From NCBI RefSeq assembly GCF_027706725.1, contig NZ_JAQFWQ010000066.1:1-38480 (forward strand): a DNA stretch of 38,480 bases, in the 5' to 3' direction. The DNA comes from Nocardiopsis endophytica (GTDB lineage Bacteria; Actinomycetota; Actinomycetes; Streptosporangiales; Streptosporangiaceae). Below, piece after piece: positions 1-38,480 of this stretch. The notes beneath the pieces are model-generated. The model worked only from the letters and a program-made list of their open reading frames with translations, made no database searches and had not been told where the DNA came from. Position 1 is the stretch's first letter. Each line of letters opens with the position of its first letter. Both the position numbers and the translations under genes were made by a program.

Positions 1-311
1 TGTGCGTGGTCGGCGTGGTTGGCAGCGACGGAGCAAGCGGGGCGGTTCCCGGGCCCTGCCTGCCGTCCGGCAGCCCCCGGGCGGTCTGGGCGGCGGCTCG
101 GCAGGTCCCCCGCTCACGGGCCCCAGCCGGGCGGCGGGTCGTCGGGGTGTGAGGTGGAGGGCGGCGACGAGGTCAGGTCGGCGGCCCATGCGGCAGCGCT
201 GTCGGCCGCGGCGCGTGTGCGTGGTCGGCGTGGTTGGCAGCGACGGAGCAAGCGGGGCGGTTCCCGGGCCTCGCCAGCCGTCCGGCAGCCCCCGGGCGGT
301 GCGGGGGTGCG
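1..311 (+). repeat. Left array of about 215-bp tandem repeat units, module 1 (truncated by window start)
   Basis: One complete unit (1-215) is followed by a partial second (216-311). Both begin TGTGCGTGGTCGGCGTGG and share the segment GGCGGTTCCCGGGCC. The same unit is found at 22985-23400 in this orientation, and reverse-complemented at 600-1215 and 24107-24645. No reading frame here has protein-like composition or a recognisable domain, so I call it non-coding. The array probably continues to the left of the window. Confidence 0.85.
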
Positions 312-316
312 CTGTC

Positions 317-378
317 GTTGATCTCGGGGAAGTCGGGCTTATCGTGTCCGGTTTAACCCCGAGTTCCCCGAGATCATC
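317..378. repeat. Dispersed hairpin element, subfamily A (module 1 copy)
   Basis: Imperfect palindrome with 21-bp arms: GTTGATCTCGGGGAAGTCGGG against its near-complement, with two mismatches, around a loop of about 20 nt. It is an inverted-orientation relative of the copies at 11006-11069 and 16751-16813. It is followed at about 391-418 by a spacer containing ATACCGGGCATAACGGGCA, which recurs next to the hairpins at 11145-11175 and 24003-24035. Confidence 0.85.
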
Positions 379-438
379 GCGGAGCAGGCCTCCCGGGCGG
401 CGGATACCGGGCATAACGGGCAGCAGGGGAGGGGGCCG

Positions 439-504
439 GGCATCCTGTGTCGTGGAATCGACGCTTTTTGGCTGATCAGGCGTCGGTTTTACGACGCTGG
501 ATGC
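439..504. repeat. Dispersed hairpin element, subfamily C (ends GGCATCC / GGATGCC), module 1
   Basis: Inverted repeat with arms of about 26 bp: GGCATCC, then GTCGT, then CGACGC, pairing with the 3' copy with about five mismatches. A homologous element lies at 23916-23982 and decayed copies at about 11184-11235 and 11349-11400. In modules 1 and 2 it lies next to a subfamily B hairpin, 27-60 bp away. Confidence 0.75.
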
Positions 505-531
505 CCCCGCACCCCTTCGCTCGCCCCCTTC

Positions 532-599
532 GGCGATGATCTCGACAAGAGTGCTGTCAAAACCGCCGGAATGACAGCACCTTTGTCGAGATCATCGCC
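532..599. repeat. Dispersed hairpin element, subfamily B (ends GGCGATGATCTCGAC), module 1
   Basis: 28-bp arms with two mismatches flank a 12-nt loop centred on CCGCCGG. Near-identical copies lie at 24041-24106 and 33521-33584, all with the internal arm segment GTGCTG/CAGCAC. In modules 1 and 2 the reverse-oriented long repeat array begins directly after this hairpin, so it marks the symmetry point of the module. Confidence 0.9.
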
Positions 600-1215
600 G
601 GGCAGGGGCGCACTGGGTCGACGGGCGCCACGAACGCGGGCGACCATCCGCCCTCCTTGTCGCATTGCCGCCTGGACCGCGAGCGACCGGACGGACGGCA
701 GGTGGGGCCGGGGAACCGCCCTGCTGTCGCCGTCGCCGCCCATCACGGTGACCATGTACACGCGCCGCGGCCGACAGCGCTACCGGATGGGCTGCTGGCC
801 TTCGTCGTCGCCGCCCTTCACGCCGCACTCCGGCGGCCCGCCGCCCGGCCGGGGTCCGTGAGCGGGGTACCTGCTGGGCCGCCCACCGCCCGCACCGCCC
901 GGGGGCTGCCGGACGGCTGGCGAGGCCAGGGAACCGCCCCGCTTGCTCCGTCGCCGCCCACCACGCCGACCACGTGCACGCCTTGCAGTCGACAGCGCTA
1001 CCGGATGGGCTGCTGGCCTTCGTCGTCGCCGCCCTCCACGCCGCGCCCCGGCGGCCCGCCGCCCGGCTGGGGCCCATGAGCGGGGGACCTGCTGAGCCGC
1101 CCGGCCACCTTGACCGCTCCGAGGGCTGCCGGACGGCTGGCGATGTCAGGGAACCGCCAGGCTGTCTCCGTCGCCGCCCATCACGGGGACCATGCACACG
1201 CCTGCCGCCCGGCGG
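600..1215 (-). repeat. Right array of 218-220-bp repeat units in inverted orientation, module 1
   Basis: Three reverse-complement copies of the unit seen at 1-215. The conserved GGAACCGCC segment occurs at 712, 930 and 1150, giving periods of 218 and 220 bp. TACCGGATGGGCTGCTGGCC and the adjoining bases are repeated almost exactly between the first two units. With 1-311 it forms a large imperfect inverted repeat centred on the hairpins at 317-599. Protein-like frames exist on both strands only because GC-rich DNA has few stops; none resembles a protein family. Confidence 0.85.
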
Positions 1216-10928: not shown

Positions 10929-11102
10929 CTTAGAGCTCGCGCGGATAGGCGGGCGCGCCGCAGGGGCCGAGCCTCGCGCCCCGCCGCCGACCGCCGCCCC
11001 CGTGTCGTTGATCTCGGGGAAGCCGGGGTAAAAACGGACAGCATAAGCCCGACTTCCCCGAGATCAACGCCGAGCACGCCCGCCCATCCGCGCGGGCTCT
11101 TA
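10929..11102. repeat. Dispersed hairpin element, subfamily A, with outer arms
   Basis: The core hairpin is 11006-11069 (GTTGATCTCGGGGAAG, pairing with CTTCCCCGAGATCAAC). It is identical over about 63 bp, loop included, to 16751-16813. Outer inverted arms lie at 10930-10957 and 11071-11101, matching the pattern TAAGAGCCCGCGCGGA then GGCGGGCG. Single copies of the outer arm also flank the cores at 16751 and 30833, so the arm belongs to the element. Confidence 0.85.
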
Positions 11103-16646: not shown

Positions 16647-16750
16647 CCGTAGGGGCGGCCCGAGTCGGACGTTCCGACGTCCCGTCCGACCCGGGCCTCC
16701 CACCCCCCGGCGGGCGCCGCGTGGGCCGTCGCCGAGCGCCGCCCCTGTGT

Positions 16751-16845
16751 CGTTGATCTCGGGGAAGCCGGGGTAAAAACGGACAGCATAAGCCCGACTT
16801 CCCCGAGATCAACACAGGGTGCGCCCGCCTGTCCGCGGGCTCTTA
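16751..16845. repeat. Dispersed hairpin element, subfamily A, with one outer arm
   Basis: Core hairpin 16751-16813, identical through the loop to 11006-11068, which implies recent copying or conversion. The outer arm lies only on the right (16814-16845: GCGCCCGCCTGTCCGCGGGC, then TCTTAG). The end of this arm, TTAGGAT, forms the -10 hexamer of the next gene, so the element appears to supply part of the fmdB promoter. Confidence 0.85.
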
Positions 16846-20272: not shown

Positions 20273-21706
20273 ATGGGTCAGATTCACGATTTGACGGCGT
20301 TGGAGCAGGCAGCGGCGGTGCGCCGCCGGGAGCTGTCCCCGGTGGAGATCGCCGACCACTACCTGGACCGGATCGAGCGGATCGGCCCCCGGGTGGGGGC
20401 GTTCATTACGGTCACCGCGGAAATCGCGCGCGAACAGGCCCGCAACGCGGAGAAACGGGTCGTCCGCGACACGCCGGAGGAGCTGCCGCCGCTGCTCGGC
20501 GTCCCGGTGCCGGTCAAGGACCTCACCCCGGTGGCGGGGGTGCGCTGGACCTCCGGGTCGGCCGCCTTCGCCGACCGCACCGCCGAGGTGGACGCCGACG
20601 TGGCCGCGCGGCTGCGCGCCGCCGGGACGGTGCTCACCGGCAAGACCAACACCCCCGAGTTCGGGGTGCCCTGCTACACCGAGAACGACATCGCCCCGCC
20701 CGCCCGCACCCCCTGGGACCCCACCCGCTCGGCCGGGGGCTCCAGCGGCGGCGCCGCGGCCGCCGTCGCCGCGGGCCTGGCCCCGGCCGCGCACGCCAGC
20801 GACGGCGGCGGGTCGATCCGCATCCCCGCCTCGGTGTGCGGGCTGTTCGGCATCAAGCCCTCCCGGGGGCGCATCACCAACGCCCCGCTGCAGCCCGACT
20901 TCATCGGGCTGTCCACCAGCGGCCCGCTGGCGCGGACCGTCGCCGACGCCGCCGCGCTGCTCGACGCCATGGCCGGGGGCGCCCCGGGGGACTACTACGC
21001 CCCGCCGCACAGCGGTGACGCGCGCACCTTCCTCGACCACGCCCGCGCCGAGCCCGGACGGCTGCGCATCGGCCGCTTCTCCGCCTCCCCGGTGCCCGGC
21101 GCCGAGCTCCACCCCGAGGTGGCCGCGGGCTACGAGGAGGCCTCCCGGCTGCTGGCCTCCCTCGGCCACGAGGTCGAGGAGGTCGACCCGCCGTTCGACG
21201 CCTCGCTGATGCGGATGTTCGAGGTGGTCTGGGCGGCCATGGCGGTGGCCACCCCGGTGCCCGAGGAGGACGAGGCGCGGCTGCGGCCCATCACCCGGGG
21301 CATGCGCGCCCGCGCCCGCGCCGCCTCGGTCGAGGACTACATCCGCGCCACCGGCGGCATCCAGATGGCGCTGCGCCGGGCCGTGCCGCGGCTGGACGCC
21401 TACGACGTGCTGCTGTCCCCGACGCTGGCGCAGCTCCCGGCGCCGGTGGGGCACTTCGCCTCCGACGACCCGCGCGAGGAGTTCGCCAAGATGTCGGCGT
21501 TCACGCCCTTCACCTCCATGTTCAACGTGACGGGCCAGCCGTCGGCGAGCGTGCCGCTGCACTGGACCGGTGAAGGGCTGCCGGTCGGCGTCATGCTGAC
21601 GGGGCGGCTGGGGGAGGAGGGGACGCTGCTGTCCCTGTCGGCCCAGCTGGAGCGGGCCCGGCCGTGGGCGGGCCGCCGTCCGGACCTGTCCGGCCTGGAG
21701 TCCTGA
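20273..21706 (+). CDS. Amidase (amidase-signature family)
   Basis: 477-aa hydrolase of the amidase-signature family, which uses a Ser-cisSer-Lys triad. Candidate residues are K82 in VPVKDL, the cis-serine in GGSSGG (157/158) and nucleophile S181 in [10 protein letters not shown]. It is too diverged from GatA to be the Glu-tRNA amidotransferase subunit, and no gatB or gatC is nearby, so a general amide or nitrile-derived amide substrate is more likely. There is no signal peptide. The likely leaderless start at ATG 20273 is set by TAGGCT six bases upstream. The last 116 bases lie antisense to the end of the MFS gene, an unusually long coding overlap for this window. Confidence 0.92.
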
Positions 21707-22895
21707 TCCCCAGGCTGAGCAGCGCGGCGAGGGTGGCCAGGGCGGCGGCGCCGCCGAGGCCCAGGGCCACCCCGCCGTGGTCGATCAGCCAGCCGGTCAG
21801 CGGCGAGGCGATGGCGATGCCGCCGGTGGTCGCGGTGGTCATCCAGCCGTAGGCCTCGCCGCGCCGCTCCGGCGGGGCCAGGTCGCCCAGGCGCTCGGTG
21901 ACCGCGGCCACCGTGGGGGCGATCGCCAGGCCGGCGATGAACAGCACCGGGGTGATCAGCCAGGGGCTGGGCAGGTGCAGCACCGGCGGCACCAGCGGCA
22001 CGATCAGCACCGCACCCGCCGCGGTGCCGAAGGCCCGCAGGGAGATGCGCGGCGGCCCGGCCAGCGCGCCCGCGGCCAGCCCGCCGACCAGCGAGCCGAA
22101 GGCGTAGACCGCCATCAGGCCCCCGGCGTACCCGGGGGTGCCCAGCTCCCGCGCCCAGGCCACCATCGCCAGGTCGACCGAGCCGAGACCGGCGACCAGC
22201 GCCATCACCACCCCGATGACCAGCAGCAGGCGGGGGTCGGCCAGCAGCGACCGGCGCCGGCCGCCCGAGGCCTCGGGCGCGCCGTCGGCGCCGGCGGCCT
22301 CGTGCGGGAGGGTGTGCCCGGCCCGGCGCAGCGCCAGCGCGAAACCGGTGGCCCCGGTGCAGGCGATGGCCCCGAGGACGAGCAGCCCGATCCGGCCGCC
22401 GCCGACCCCGACCACCGCGGCGGCCAGAAGTGGGCCCACGATGAACAGCAGTTCCTGGAGGGTCGCCTCGGCGGCGAACACGGCCTGCCGGGTGGGGCCG
22501 GAGGTGATGCGCGGCCACAGGGACCGGCCGATCTGCGTGGCCGGGGGCTGGAAGACGCCGGTGGCCACCGCCAGCGGCAGCGCCGCCCACCACAGCCAGG
22601 CGGGCAGGAACGCCATCGCGGTCAGCCCGAGGCCGTAGACCAGGGCGGAGAACAGCAGGAGCCGGTCGTTGGGGCGGCGGTCGGCCATGCGCCCCCGGAT
22701 GGGCCCACCGAGCGCGGTGCCCACGGTCAGGCCCCCGGCGACCAGTCCCGCCAGCGCATAGGAGCCGGTCCACCCCGCGACCAGGAAGGTGACCGCGATC
22801 GGCATGCCCCCGATGTGCAGCCGGGCCGCCAGCGACCAGAAGAGCAGCGCCCCGAGCCGGGGCACGGCGAACAGCCGTCGGTAGGACTGGAGCAT
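21591..22895 (-). CDS. MFS transporter (drug/solute efflux type)
   Basis: About 434 aa from ATG 22895, with about 12 membrane segments and a hydrophilic central loop near residues 195-220. The MADRRPNDRLL loop after helix 2 is the conserved cytoplasmic motif, and GPIRGRMADRRP is typical of actinobacterial efflux-like MFS proteins. Substrate unknown. The last 37 residues or so are a Pro/Ala/Gly tail with no membrane character, encoded entirely within the 3' end of the convergent amidase gene. TTG 22907 is an alternative start in the same frame; ATG 22895 has AGTAGGA just upstream. The promoter region has two TAGGAC copies 22 bp apart, suggesting local regulation. Confidence 0.85.
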   Translation of the reverse strand: MLQSYRRLFAVPRLGALLFWSLAARLHIGGMPIAVTFLVAGWTGSYALAGLVAGGLTVGTALGGPIRGRMADRRPNDRLLLFSALVYGLGLTAMAFLPAWLWWAALPLAVATGVFQPPATQIGRSLWPRITSGPTRQAVFAAEATLQELLFIVGPLLAAAVVGVGGGRIGLLVLGAIACTGATGFALALRRAGHTLPHEAAGADGAPEASGGRRRSLLADPRLLLVIGVVMALVAGLGSVDLAMVAWARELGTPGYAGGLMAVYAFGSLVGGLAAGALAGPPRISLRAFGTAAGAVLIVPLVPPVLHLPSPWLITPVLFIAGLAIAPTVAAVTERLGDLAPPERRGEAYGWMTTATTGGIAIASPLTGWLIDHGGVALGLGGAAALATLAALLSLGIRTPGRTGPDGGPPTAGPAPAGPTGTAASPPPPAAPSA

Positions 22896-22896
22896 T

Positions 22897-22924
22897 GTCC
22901 TACTCAATCACAGGATTCGTCCTA
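22897..22924 (-). promoter_or_regulatory. Two TAGGAC direct repeats, 22 bp apart, upstream of the MFS gene
   Basis: On the minus strand TAGGAC occurs at 22919-22924 and 22897-22902, each followed by an A-rich context (ACGAAT, AATG). The distal copy could be the -10 element; the proximal copy overlaps the ribosome-binding region. The spacing of about two helical turns could also serve a repressor. The area is much more AT-rich than its surroundings. Confidence 0.35.
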
Positions 22925-22984: not shown

Positions 22985-23400
22985 CGGCGCGGAGTCGAGT
23001 GAAGGGCGCCGACGAGGAGAGGTCGGGGCCCGTGCGGCAGCGCTGTCGGGCGCGGCGCGTGTGCGTGGTCTCCGTTGTTGGCGGCGACGGAGCGAGCGGG
23101 GCGGTTCCCGGGCCCTGCCTGCCGGGCGCAAGCCCCCTCGCGGTCCGGGTGGGTGGGCCGGCTGGGCTGGTACCCCGCTCACGGACACCAGCCGGGCGGC
23201 CGGCCGCCGGAGTGTGAGCGGGATGGCAGCGGCGACGAAGATCCGCGGCCCGTACCGCAGCGCCGTCGGCCGTCCGGCGTGTGCGTGGTCACCGTGAATG
23301 GCAGCGACGGAGCGAGCGGGGCGGTTCCCGGGCCCTGCCTGCCGGGCGCAAGCCCCCTCGCGGTCCGGGCAGGCGGTGCGGCGGGCAGGGTTCGCGCTCT
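22985..23400 (+). repeat. Left array of about 220-bp units, module 2
   Basis: Two units in the same orientation as 1-311. GCGGTTCCCG occurs at 23101 and 23321, a 220-bp period, and the stretch GGGCCCTGCCTGCCGGGCGC is repeated exactly with its flanks. No coding content. Confidence 0.85.
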
Positions 23401-23915
23401 TCGTTGCCCGGCACGCTCTCCGGGCCAGCCCGGTGAACCCCGGCAGGTTCGTGACCTGGTCGAACACTCCGCGTTAAGGGCAGGGAGGGGTGGGAAGCGC
23501 GCTTGGCGACACCCGCCAAGACCCCGGGGCGACGAACACGGCGGTACCAGAACGGGATTCGGGAACAGGGCGCCCGGTTCCTGCCTGTTTGGGTGGCCCG
23601 GGTTGCCGCTCGGGGTGCCGGTACGGCCGCCCGCCCGCTCCGGCCGCGCACCCACGGGCTGCGATGGGCCGATATCGACTACACCCGGTGACACCGGGAC
23701 CGGCGAACGGCCCCAGTGTGCCGTTTAGGGGCCTTCTGGAACCGAATCCCGTTCTGGTATCGCGATGACCGCGCATCCGCACCGCCCGCGAGGCCGGTCC
23801 GGGTATCGAACAGGGCGCCGGAGGGGGCCCGGCGCCCTCGGAACCGGGCAAATCGGGTGCCGTGTCGGTATCGGCTCGGCCGGAACCCGCCTTCCGGGCG
23901 CCTCGGGTGGCCGGG
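23401..23915. repeat. Module 2 core, with 18-bp inverted repeat
   Basis: TACCAGAACGGGATTCGG at 23545-23562 has an exact reverse complement at 23742-23759, 179 bases away, and the match continues imperfectly on both sides. The region between has no gene. Module 1 lacks this segment, so it looks like an insertion or a variable core. Confidence 0.7.
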
Positions 23916-23982
23916 GCCATCTTGAGTGGTGAAATCGACGCCTGATCCGCCTAAAAGCGTCGATTTCACGACGCTGGATGCC
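23916..23982. repeat. Dispersed hairpin element, subfamily C, module 2
   Basis: The inner stem is perfect: GTGAAATCGACGC pairs with GCGTCGATTTCAC; the outer arm ends in GGATGCC. Homologous to 439-504. It is followed by the conserved spacer (TGCCCGTTATGCCCGGTAT, reverse-complement orientation relative to module 1). Confidence 0.85.
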
Positions 23983-24040
23983 CAACCCCCTCTCCCGGTG
24001 CCCGTTATGCCCGGTATGCACCGCCCGGACGGCCCTCTCC

Positions 24041-24106
24041 GCGATGATCTCGACGGAAGTGCTGTCAAAACCGCCGGAATGACAGCACTCTTGTCGAGAT
24101 CATCGC
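24041..24106. repeat. Dispersed hairpin element, subfamily B, module 2
   Basis: GCGATGATCTCGAC pairs with GTCGAGATCATCGC; the internal GTGCTGTCA/TGACAGCAC stem and the CCGCCGG loop match 532-599 almost exactly. The inverted long array starts directly after it, as in module 1. Confidence 0.9.
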
Positions 24107-24645
24107 CGGGCAGGGGCGCACCGCGGGGGTGCGGCCGCCACGAGCGCGGACGACCACGCACCCGCCCGGCCACGCCGCCGCCCGGACCGCGATGGGCCCG
24201 CCGCCCGGCAGGCGGGGCCGGGGAACCGCCCTGCTCTGGCCGTCGCCGCCGACCACGCCGGCCACGCACACGCCGGACGGCCGACAGTGCTACAGCCAGG
24301 GCCACCGACCTTCCTCGTCGCCGCCCTCCACCCCACACCCCGCTGGCCCGCCGCCCGGCCGGGGCCAGGAAGCGGGGTACCTGCTCAGTCGCCCGACCAA
24401 CCGGACTACCAGCGACCGGACAGACGGCAGGCAGCGTCCGGGAATCGCTCGGCTGTCGCCGTCGCTGCCGAGAACGGTGACCACGCACACGCGCTGCGCC
24501 CGACAGCGCTACAGCACGGGCCGCCGACCTTTCCTCGTCGCCGCCCTCTACCCCACACTCCGCTGGCCCGCCGCTCGGCCGGAACTCGCAAGCGGGGTAC
24601 CTGCTGGTCCGCCGCCTCCGGTATTGCGAGGGGGGCACCTCCCGA
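24107..24645 (-). repeat. Right array of about 219-bp units in inverted orientation, module 2
   Basis: Reverse-complement units with conserved GGGAACCGCC at 24221 and its variant GGAATCGCTC at 24441, and two copies of a segment containing CGACCTTCCTCGTCGCCGCC or CGACCTTTCCTCGTCGCCGCC. The first 100 bases match the equivalent part of module 1 (from 600). It pairs with 22985-23400 as a giant imperfect inverted repeat. Confidence 0.85.
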
Positions 24646-24895
24646 ACGGGGCCGGGCGCGGGGTGTACCGAGGGCGTGTGTACTCCGGGCGCTCGGCGAC
24701 GTCGCAGTTCGGGGCGCTCATCCAAGGCCCGCGCAGGCCCTACCCCGGCCCCGCCCAGACCCCACCCCGGCCCCGCGCATGCCCCGCACATGCCCCGCGC
24801 GCAGTGAACCGGACCCCTCTGCGGCTGGTTCCGGTCCCGAACGGTGCATGGCGTTCAAGGCCCGAACGGCCCTCCATGCGGCATCATCGTGTGCT
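24646..24895. other. Intergenic region upstream of malQ
   Basis: No gene seen. A C-rich stretch with repeated CCCCGCGCATG/CCCCGCACATG segments lies at about 24736-24805. The malQ frame is open through it but the composition is not protein-like. CATCAT (24882-24887), eight bases before GTG 24896, is a weak -10 candidate. Confidence 0.4.
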
Positions 24896-26953
24896 GTGAG
24901 CGATGCGGACCTGGCCCGGCTGGCCGAAGAGCACGGCGTAGCGACCACCTACGAGGACTGGCGGGGCCGCCGCGTGCGCGTCGGTGCCGACACCCTCCGC
25001 CACGTCCTGGCCGCACTGGGGGTCGACGCCTCCGACCCGCGCGCCTCCCTGGAGGCCCACTGGGCCGACCAGGCCCGCCGCCTGCTGCCCCCCGCGGTCG
25101 TCGCCCGCGCCGGGCGCTCGCCCCGGACACCCCTGCCCGACGGCGCCCGCTCCTGGGTCGAGCTGGCCGACGGCGGCTGGGCCCGCCCCGGGCCCGACCT
25201 GCCCACCGGCGTGCACTCCCTGCACGCCGAGTGCCACGGCGTCGCGCAGAGCGCCCCGCTCCTCGTCGTCCCCGAGAGGCTGGAACCCCCGCGCGCGCTG
25301 GGCGACCGCCGCGCCTGGGGACTGACCGCGCAGCTGTACTCCATCCGCTCCCGCGCCTCTTGGGGCCTGGGCGACCTGCGCGACCTGGCCGAACTCGCCG
25401 ACTGGAGCGCGCGCGACCTGGGCGCCGCCTTCACCGCCGTCAACCCGGTCCACGCCGCCGAACCCGAGATCCCCCTCGAACCCTCCCCCTACCTGCCGGT
25501 CAGCCGCCGCTACGCCAACCCCCTCTACCTCCGCGTCGAGGACGTGCCCGAGTACGCCCGCCTCGACCCCACCCAGCGCGAGGCCGTCCAGCGCCTCGCC
25601 CGCCCCCTGCGCGAACGCGGCCGCACCGCCGACCTCCTCGACCGCGACTCGGTGTGGGGCGCCAAGCGCGCCGCCCTGGAAGCCCTGTACCAGGTGCCGC
25701 GCTCACCCGCCCGCGAGGCCGCCTTCCAGGCCTACCTGGAGCGCGAGGGCGCCCCGCTGGTCGAGTACGCCACCTGGTGCGCCCTGGCCGAGGAACACGG
25801 CCCCGACTACCGCTCCTGGCCGCCGGAGCTGCGCGACGTCTCCGCCCAGGAGGTGGGCGCGCGGGCCCTGCGCCGCTGGCCCGAGGTCGACTTCCACCGC
25901 TGGCTGCAGTGGGTGCTCGACGACCAGCTCGCCGCCGCCCAGGCCAGCGCGCGCGCCGCCGGGATGCCGATCGGCATCGTGCACGACATGGCGGTGGGCG
26001 TGCGCACCGGCGGCGCCGACGCCTGGATGTACCGCGGCACCCTGGTGGAGGGGGTGAGCGTCGGCGCCCCGCCGGACGCCTTCAACCAGCAGGGCCAGGA
26101 CTGGTCGCAGCCGCCCTGGCACCCGGTCCGGCTGGCTGAGGAGGGCTACGCGCCCTTCCGCCAGACCCTTCGCCAGACCATGCGGCACGCGGGAGGCGTG
26201 CGCGCCGACCACGTCGCCGGGCTGTTCCGGCTGTGGTGGATCCCCGAGGGCGCCGACCCCTCCGAAGGCGTCTACGTCCGCTACGACCACGAGGGCATGG
26301 TGGGCTCCCTCCTGCTCACCGCGCAGGAGAGCGGCGCCCTGGTGGTCGGCGAGGACCTGGGCACGATCGAGCCGTGGGTCCGCGACCACCTGGCCGAGCG
26401 CGGCGTCCTGGGCACCTCGGTGCTCTGGTTCGAGCGGGACGAGGACGGCGCCCCCAAGCGCCCCGAGGACTGGCGCCGCGCCTGCATGGCCACCGTCGCC
26501 ACGCACGACCTGCCGCCGGTGGCGTCCTTCCTCACCGCCGAGCACGTGGAGCTGCGCGACCGGCTCGGACTGCTCGACCGCCCCGTGGCCGAGGAGCGGG
26601 CCGATGCCGAGGCGCAGGTGGAGGCCTGGCGCCGCCGCCTGGTGGAGCTGGGCCTGCTGGACGAGGGGGTGGACCCGGTCTCCTCGCCGTCCACGGTGGT
26701 GGCCGCGCTCCACGCCTACCTGGCGCGCACCCCGGCGCAGCTGGTCGGACTGGCCCTGACCGACCTGGTGGGCGACCGGCGGATGCAGAACCAGCCCGGC
26801 ACGTCCACCGAGTACCCCAACTGGCGGATGCCGCTCACCAGCGCCGAGGGCGAACCGGTGCTGCTGGACGAGCTCTTCGCCGACCCGCATCTGTCGGCGG
26901 CGGTGCGCCGCGCCCTGCAGCCGGTCACCGCCGGCCTGTGCCGGGGGCGGTGA
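24896..26953 (+). CDS. malQ: 4-alpha-glucanotransferase (amylomaltase)
   Basis: 685-aa GH77 enzyme that transfers alpha-1,4-glucan segments in maltodextrin and glycogen metabolism. The N-terminal module (about 1-120: LARLAEEHGVATTYEDWRGR and TLRHVLAALGVDAS) is the extra domain typical of actinobacterial MalQ. The catalytic domain has the nucleophile D438 in VRADHV, acid/base E486 in GEDLG and transition-state D538 in THDLPP, with DAFNQQGQDWSQPPW as the 250s-loop region. The frame is open back to 24287 across repeat DNA, but conserved sequence begins at GTG 24896. It stands alone with no maltose transport genes nearby. It is convergent with pepN, and two hairpins separate them. Confidence 0.95.
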   Translation: MSDADLARLAEEHGVATTYEDWRGRRVRVGADTLRHVLAALGVDASDPRASLEAHWADQARRLLPPAVVARAGRSPRTPLPDGARSWVELADGGWARPGPDLPTGVHSLHAECHGVAQSAPLLVVPERLEPPRALGDRRAWGLTAQLYSIRSRASWGLGDLRDLAELADWSARDLGAAFTAVNPVHAAEPEIPLEPSPYLPVSRRYANPLYLRVEDVPEYARLDPTQREAVQRLARPLRERGRTADLLDRDSVWGAKRAALEALYQVPRSPAREAAFQAYLEREGAPLVEYATWCALAEEHGPDYRSWPPELRDVSAQEVGARALRRWPEVDFHRWLQWVLDDQLAAAQASARAAGMPIGIVHDMAVGVRTGGADAWMYRGTLVEGVSVGAPPDAFNQQGQDWSQPPWHPVRLAEEGYAPFRQTLRQTMRHAGGVRADHVAGLFRLWWIPEGADPSEGVYVRYDHEGMVGSLLLTAQESGALVVGEDLGTIEPWVRDHLAERGVLGTSVLWFERDEDGAPKRPEDWRRACMATVATHDLPPVASFLTAEHVELRDRLGLLDRPVAEERADAEAQVEAWRRRLVELGLLDEGVDPVSSPSTVVAALHAYLARTPAQLVGLALTDLVGDRRMQNQPGTSTEYPNWRMPLTSAEGEPVLLDELFADPHLSAAVRRALQPVTAGLCRGR

Positions 26954-26970
26954 GCCCGCGGCCCTTCTGT

Positions 26971-27034
26971 CGTTGATCTCGGGAAATCCGACGCTACAAG
27001 CGCGGTTTTAGCGTCGGTTTTCCCGAGATCAACG
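26971..27034. repeat. Dispersed hairpin element, subfamily D (solo)
   Basis: GTTGATCTCGGGAAA...CGACGCTA pairs with TAGCGTCGGTTTTCCCGAGATCAAC over about 26 bp with few mismatches. The ends match subfamily A, the inner arm matches 30833-30896. It lies 17 bases after the malQ stop and could act as a terminator as well. Confidence 0.85.
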
Positions 27035-27042
27035 GGGAATCG

Positions 27043-30797: not shown

Positions 30798-30896
30798 GCT
30801 CGGAGCCCGCGCGGACAGGCGGGGGTGCTCCGCGTTGATCTCGGGAGAAACGACGCTACCGGGCCGCTTTTTGGGGCGGTTCTCCCGAGATCAACG
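30798..30896. repeat. Dispersed hairpin element, subfamily D, with left outer arm
   Basis: Core 30833-30896: GTTGATCTCGGGAGAA pairs with TTCTCCCGAGATCAAC (one mismatch), inner arm CGACGCTA partly paired. The left arm GAGCCCGCGCGGACAGGCGG is the same outer arm as at 11071-11102 and 16814-16845. Confidence 0.85.
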
Positions 30897-30972
30897 GCGC
30901 AGGGGCGGCGATCGGCGGCGGGTTTCGGAGGAGCTCTCCGGGCCCCTGGATCGCTTCCGCGCGGCCCGCGAA

Positions 30973-33484: not shown

Positions 33485-33520
33485 GCCGTGCGGAGTTCCC
33501 CCCTCACTCGGCCTCTCAGG

Positions 33521-33584
33521 CGTTGATCTCGACGAGAGTGCTGCCGAATCCGCCGGAATGACAGCACTTTTGTCGAGATCATCG
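33521..33584. repeat. Dispersed hairpin element, subfamily B (solo)
   Basis: CGTTGATCTCGACGAGAGTG pairs with CACTTTTGTCGAGATCATCG (four mismatches); internal stem GTGCTG/CAGCAC and CCGCCGG loop as at 532-599 and 24041-24106. The left end has the subfamily A form GTTGATC while the right has GATCATC, linking the two subfamilies. Confidence 0.85.
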
Positions 33585-33619
33585 GCGAGGGGGCCGGTGA
33601 GCCGGGGCGAGGACGGCCA

Positions 33620-38420: not shown

Positions 38421-38480
38421 GCGCCCCGGGCGGCGGGCCGTCCGGGTGTGGCGTGGAGGGCAGCGACGAGAAGAGGCCAG
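38421..38480 (+). repeat. Start of another long-repeat array (cut by window end)
   Basis: GGCGGCGGGCCGTCCGGGTG and the following GTGGAGGGCAGCGACGAG match the later part of the unit at 120-180 in the same orientation. A third full module probably lies beyond the window. Confidence 0.65.

Follow-up and report, generated by a model that had tools for sequence, protein, structure and literature searches.

Kilobase-sized composite repeats with opposed tandem arms around a palindromic core in Nocardiopsis

Several kinds of repeated bacterial DNA, namely BOX, RUP, SPRITE and IS elements, show a bias toward positions between convergent genes, which the sections of PMC3049150 that treat them take as evidence of mobile parasitic DNA. 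The modules that we describe here resemble the BOX elements of Streptococcus pneumoniae, for which the same sections report fixed modules combined with a tandem module of variable number, many intergenic copies, predicted stem-loops, over-representation between convergent genes and a mover that is unproven (PMC3049150). They differ in that, as BOX is presented there, the boxB repeats lie between boxA and boxC, whereas here the variable repeats form two outer arms that point inward (PMC3049150). It is by architecture that we set BOX apart from our modules. BOX elements are also much shorter than the Nocardiopsis modules, which are GC-rich and non-coding and measure 1–2.5 kb. Mycobacterial interspersed repetitive units resemble our modules in being intergenic tandem repeats that occur by the dozen, dispersed through an actinobacterial genome; unlike our modules, they are not known to have opposed arms or a palindromic core.

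The window, by which we mean the whole stretch of DNA analysed (38,480 bp, the complete contig C66 of the source genome, 74% GC), contains two of these modules, which were annotated by nhmmer searches with unit and palindrome profiles made from the window itself. In module 1 (1–1198), whose left arm is cut off by the contig start, a full unit of ~213 bp (1–212, plus strand) is followed by the innermost half unit of that arm (216–305, plus strand, profile positions 1–90); next come palindromes A (315–384), B (435–507) and C (528–604), each recognised by profile and by folding, and then, on the minus strand, the innermost half unit (662–760) and two full units (764–977 and 985–1198) of the right arm. 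The first-pass annotation of this DNA had placed tandem units, their orientations and hairpins close to these positions; the inverted units that it saw on the right are present, but the arm holds 2.5 of them (a half and two full) rather than 3. As that annotation also recognised, module 2 (22985–24648) follows the plan of module 1, to which it adds a core segment D of ~525–530 bp and from which it omits palindrome A. Its left arm, on the plus strand, consists of an outer partial unit (22985–23056), a full unit (23060–23272) and the innermost half unit (23280–23385); segment D (23386–23914, plus strand) includes at 23452–23467 (plus strand) a 16-bp motif, TGACCTGGTCGAACAC, found by motif comparison to be common to the type II cores described below; palindromes B (23914–23986) and C (24035–24112) complete the core, and the right arm, on the minus strand, runs from the innermost half unit (24168–24270) through a full unit (24278–24489) to an outer partial unit (24493–24648). 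The best inverted and direct self-matches were 326 and 319 bits for module 1 and 298 and 175 bits for module 2, compared with maxima of 39 and 33 bits and of 43 and 33 bits, respectively, among 60 dinucleotide shuffles of each; 24 other 1.4-kb stretches of the window reached no more than 90 bits inverted and 107 bits direct. A GGDEF (diguanylate cyclase) gene (1509–2852) directly adjoins module 1. At the right contig end, a weak profile match (22 bits) marks a partial unit (38426–38478, plus strand) that is perhaps the start of another module cut by the assembly.

The source genome (G000) contains dozens of copies. Searched with module 1, it gave 220 matches, drawn from the best 40 candidate stretches, and at least 40 modules by the scoring of those 40; our sample comprises 38 module loci (L020–L057) plus the window, 39 loci in all. 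The orientation rule, whose failure in other copies the first-pass annotation had named beforehand as the refuting outcome, holds throughout: across the 38 modules or half-modules in which A, B or C could be recognised (the units-only loci L034 and L042 were left out), none of the 152 units is misoriented, and every one points at the core. In 46 of 50 arms the innermost unit is about half complete, ending at profile positions 90–112. Read from B towards C, the 23 cores that have both comprise six A-A-B-C, six A-B-C, eight B-C, two B-A-C and one B-C-A-A, the usual plan being D or A-A, then B, then C. Segment D occurs in 4 of the 39 loci (module 2 and three others, one of them cut by a contig end), and is present in 3 and absent from 14 of the 17 loci that no contig end cuts; among 39 loci scanned in relatives, it was found in 15 from N. 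chromatogenes and N. suaedae, one of these with a match of just 206 bp, and there was one further match of 78 bp. The outer ends of modules fall at many different unit positions, both here and in the relative G004. Since 22 sampled loci (L028, L029, L034, L035 and L040–L057) run into contig ends, two module halves at different contig ends may be one module; from these loci and the left end of the window, it appears that short-read assemblies are probably fragmented by the modules.

For comparison we used N. chromatogenes (G001), N. suaedae (G002), N. potens (G003), a relative assembled in 3 contigs (G004) and N. halophila (G005). In N. chromatogenes and N. suaedae the units, which we call type I, are ~213 bp long with a consensus nearly the same as that of the source genome, and the units of N. 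halophila align only partly to this consensus. The innermost unit ends at profile positions 101–105 in 9 of 10 N. chromatogenes arms; in N. suaedae its end varies, and some arms are cut by contig ends. In N. potens and G004 the opposed arrays are built from a ~76-bp unit (type II), and a search with the profile of either unit type fails to recover the other (best E 0.21). With module 1 as query there were three weak matches in N. potens (best 1e-6) and two in G004 (best 2e-4); many other family members were similar. Both arms surround a core in all 29 N. potens loci and in 39 of the first 40 G004 modules; eleven further G004 sites were sampled, some of them incomplete.

Units of one module are more alike than units of different modules in the source genome (mean identity 0.79–0.82 within vs 0.77 between) and in G004 (0.78–0.82 vs 0.74), and not in N. 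potens (0.68–0.74 vs 0.71); in two of the three genomes, then, the values fit local recombination that would keep the units of a module alike. Strong homogenisation within species was considered and rejected, as the unit consensus is nearly identical in the source genome, N. chromatogenes and N. suaedae and the identities within and between genomes overlap. The SbcD gene is retained in all six genomes, so its loss does not account for the survival of the inverted repeats. A phage or plasmid origin of type I was likewise set aside: module 1 had no match at E 1e-5 in 72,556 plasmid and 50,697 phage records.

The two types do share something in the core. A profile of D, run against G004 cores, placed 10 of the 12 best hits listed at one position and on one strand (E 0.003–0.02), whereas 20-base-block shuffles gave nothing below E 2.8 and reversed sequence gave nothing. 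Allowing up to 2 mismatches, the 16-base motif occurs in 29 of 29 N. potens, 47 of 50 G004, 8 of 10 N. chromatogenes, 7 of 13 N. suaedae, 1 of 5 N. halophila and 5 of 39 source-genome loci, a count made with no shuffled control and one in which a few hits fall outside modules. This common motif suggests a constrained site. It also brings in an alternative that we regard as possible but unlikely, namely that the modules are host-selected DNA sites to which a nucleoid, segregation or termination protein binds through both units and core; the opposed arrays would concentrate that protein at dozens of places on the chromosome, and the repeat would change in sequence along with it. A strict architecture under two unalignable unit types and a motif common to both are what such sites would be expected to show; D and its motif are, however, absent from most uncut cores of the source genome, and no candidate for the binding protein was identified. 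A more specific version seems to us distinctly improbable: a dispersed "centromere-like" element with dozens of sites per genome, at which a host protein would recognise a DNA structure made by the inward arrays and the palindromic core and would evolve together with it, selection acting on the architecture while the unit is replaced between species groups in the way that eukaryotic satellite DNA is.

On either strand, the consensus sequences of A, B and C give hairpins that are nearly perfect, and hairpins of other sequence stand at the expected place of B in several N. chromatogenes and N. suaedae cores (a repeat search with a short distance limit misses the N. chromatogenes core hairpins, a limit of that method). 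This raises a further reading, which we consider quite unlikely, that the modules are structured RNAs or two-way transcription terminators in which transcripts arriving from either side fold into hairpins and stop; the strong stems on both strands are in its favour. If a structure is maintained as RNA from one strand, G-T mismatches should outnumber A-C mismatches on that strand. Among module-oriented copies (22 of A, 23 of B and 23 of C) we counted 14, 38 and 28 G-T and 29, 33 and 38 A-C stem mismatches, respectively, or 80 G-T vs 100 A-C in all, which, with no RNA positive control, reveals no surplus of G-U on the strand of the module and counts against this reading; the stems of A lean to A-C (P = 0.03). 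Changes on both sides of a pair were seen in 9 of 28 pairs in A, 4 of 31 in B and 6 of 33 in C. A looser stem count gave 88 G-T vs 87 A-C, and RNAalifold, a program with its own preference for G-U, selects pairs that lean to G-T as a terminator or RNA would predict (26:7 in B and 39:8 in C); we prefer the first count because its stems were picked without favouring G-T.

Whole cores fold on both strands. Against column-shuffled alignments (12 forward-strand shuffles each), D scored z values of −5.8 forward and −4.7 reverse and the type II cores −12.9 and −9.2, and in the folded alignments G-T exceeds A-C on both strands (369:180 and 283:177 for D; 444:212 and 344:214 for type II). Both results lend some support to an RNA or terminator, but the reverse-strand values rest on forward-strand shuffles, and core folding therefore does not decide the strand. 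An Rfam scan of the window, which holds two type I modules, gave 0 matches at the gathering score, a further point against RNA. The first-pass annotation had offered a very long structured RNA as one of its options, which the strand-neutral count and the Rfam result leave disfavoured despite the RNAalifold lean and the strong folding on both strands. Its option of extrusion as DNA would fit the palindromes, the absent strand bias and the loops of A and C, which are found in both orientations. The lack of strand bias is equally what a protein-binding DNA site would show.

Palindromes A and C are also found alone, outside modules. In the window, profile searches placed solo copies of A at 11005–11073, at 16750–16817 (between genes called convergent), at 26970–27038 (17 bp past a gene end, again between genes called convergent) and at 30828–30897, and a solo C at 33515–33590, likewise between genes called convergent. 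A pattern for A with fixed ends, TTGATCTCGGG...CCCGAGATCAA, and a variable stem, 60 bp long in nearly all matches listed, matched 189 times in the source genome (inside and outside modules), 63 times in N. halophila, 49 times in N. suaedae, once in N. chromatogenes and not at all in N. potens or G004; the reversed pattern gave 0 matches. At stem positions 10, 13, 14, 17, 18 and 20, more than one Watson-Crick pair occurs and pairing is above the expectation from column composition (23 distinct copies from the source genome and N. suaedae). Palindrome A looks like a REPIN-like family without an evident RAYT. The Y1 transposase that marks RAYTs (PF01797) had no match in N. potens or G004, short low-scoring matches in N. 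chromatogenes and N. suaedae, and one full match each in the source genome and N. halophila; the 3.4-kb locus of the source-genome gene (within about 1.5 kb) contains no A, B, C or unit. A RAYT/REPIN system was therefore rejected as the general mover, given a source-genome gene unlinked to the repeats and two genomes with no Y1 match.

Could the modules instead be coding sequence, or what is left of it? No frame is open in all 15 copies of D, and neither D nor the type II cores show an open frame common to all copies; of 198 pairwise indels (the pairs are not independent), 178 are not multiples of 3; unit spacings such as 214, 215, 216, 218 and 221 bp do not keep frame; and Pfam gave no hit for either of the two long frames that cover modules 1 and 2 on the minus strand. 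A coding repeat was rejected on these grounds. Transposase genes do lie inside two modules, one of the mutator family (L022:3880–5145) and one of ISL3 (L252:4130–5509), and a gene with an rve domain lies beside D in a third locus (L098:71–928), as might be expected of decayed insertion sequences, but these are three families at three single loci, and no transposase common to the modules was found. Together with the frames, spacings and Pfam results, this leaves descent from a decayed insertion sequence or coding domain, which the first-pass annotation had named as the refuting outcome, largely refuted and in our view very improbable. The same annotation took the form to be unexplained by a classical transposon, and we agree, having seen neither fixed ends nor a transposase common to the modules.

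Module 2 lies between divergent genes, one for an MFS protein (21594–22907, minus strand) and malQ (24896–26953, plus strand), which is not where a two-way terminator would be looked for. At the same site an array is present in N. suaedae (at two contig ends), N. potens and G004; N. chromatogenes has a short remnant, and N. halophila about 860 bp without self-repeats. Of the best 20 of 80 malQ loci, two have self-matching arrays upstream of the gene, namely those of N. suaedae (where the contig end cuts the array) and N. potens. Flanks are shared with sampled module loci of the source genome at 6 of 13 N. suaedae loci, 1 of 5 N. halophila loci and 0 of 10 N. chromatogenes loci, and with module loci of G004 at module 2 (both flanks) and at L045/L102 and L052/L125 (one flank each). 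By their flanks, some loci are old and shared between species, and the retention of many of them fits old residence or selection. The persistence of an array at the site of module 2 in four genomes and the 6 shared N. suaedae loci favour a host-selected site, against which stand the remnant in N. chromatogenes and the lack of a recognisable array in N. halophila.

N. potens and G004 share few loci. Six of the 29 N. potens loci could be placed, of which 5 coincide with sampled G004 module loci and 1 is empty; for L229 only the left flank was found. At the empty site, one N. potens module (L225, ~1.8 kb) is missing from G004, where flanks ~96% identical enclose 207 bp (L241, contig C1, near 2055179–2055387). 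The sequences between the flanks of this one filled/empty pair are unrelated, and no target duplication was seen by eye; the single site could instead be a deletion in G004. L241 includes a stretch of 39 bp that matches the 3′ end of the adjacent gene at 87% identity. A host-selected site would not lead one to expect an empty site or so few shared loci, nor the spacing of modules in G004, which is irregular by eye. The same spacing bears on the chromosome-organising site, a candidate role that the first-pass annotation had offered as an option. At L022/L131, L030/L106, L021/L108 and L070/L117, and less clearly at L040/L127, the modules of different species lie a few kb apart in different intergenic gaps, which may reflect local relocation or chance.

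Where modules sit relative to genes differs between genomes. Considering gaps with both neighbours within 600 bp, G004 has 17 convergent gaps among 32 with a module vs 14 among 105 without (P = 1.1e-5), and 1 divergent gap among the 32 vs 32 among the 105; this set drops 7 of 39 module gaps, the module 2 locus among them, and all 39 comprise 20 convergent, 17 co-directional and 2 divergent gaps. In the source genome there is no convergent bias, with only 4 of 17 modules lying between convergent genes (both neighbours called). Our home-made gene caller misreads some membrane-protein genes; neither of the two callers used picked up the MFS gene next to module 2, and the second typed its divergent G004 counterpart as "++". 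The convergent placement in G004 would suit a terminator; it is also a preference for places where insertion hurts least.

On balance we favour, with modest confidence, a giant, composite, non-coding, non-autonomous interspersed repeat of the BIME/BOX-like class that works as DNA and may have a host function. This interspersed, non-autonomous reading is the parsimonious one, given copies that differ between close species, the lack of a common gene and the placement in G004. Counting against it, no mover and no fixed ends were found, nor any target duplication at the one filled/empty pair. Of the four options in the first-pass annotation, a non-autonomous mobile composite is the best supported, by the dozens of copies, the empty site and the lineage-specific copies, and further by the absence of a cargo gene and the convergent-gene bias in G004. 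Each copy consists of a palindromic core flanked on either side by one half unit and a variable number of inward tandem units, and copies would arise and disappear within a genome with no gene of their own, most likely as non-autonomous elements that move rather than only being lost. The long inverted arms and palindromes would invite hairpins or cruciforms, which may be the working form of the DNA, and recombination or replication across the inverted arms could leave flipped loops. Placement after genes may reflect tolerance or a mild two-way transcription-barrier effect. If this is right, bacteria host kilobase-sized composite repeats whose opposed-array architecture has outlived the replacement of the repeat unit. 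Such repeats would offer a test bed for non-coding repeat spread without a known mover and for long imperfect inverted repeats that survive in cells keeping the SbcD gene, as well as a test of whether architecture alone can be selected.

The interspersed repeat reading can be set against further known systems. As in REP/BIME and REPIN-RAYT, in the parts of PMC3116915 and PMC3733652 that describe them, the modules include extragenic palindromes in many copies, both single and clustered; unlike REPIN-RAYT as described there, they have a fixed order and orientation (PMC3116915, PMC3733652). A palindrome pair forming a hairpin with many dispersed copies is found in palindrome A and not in the module as a whole, and REPIN-RAYT differs further in its RAYT linkage, which we do not see, N. 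potens and G004 having no Y1 transposase hit. With MITEs, going by the features summarised in the relevant part of PMC3049150, the modules have in common that they are non-coding, inverted, base-paired and probably non-autonomous; they differ from them in their GC-richness, their tandem arms and the lack of fixed terminal repeats, of a target duplication that could be seen and of an identified related IS (PMC3049150). An insertion sequence would bring its own transposase, common to its copies, whereas transposases were found at single module loci. In the open-access literature searched, no description of such an opposed-array form was found; apparently new are the strictness of the opposed-array plan, the large size and the survival under two unalignable units. 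Membership in REPIN-RAYT or among MITEs is unsupported by the features compared; what the modules do have is ordered, distinct sub-sequences, units of variable number, an intergenic location and many copies, as in composites of the BOX/BIME class, and they belong with the composite interspersed repeats in the broad sense.
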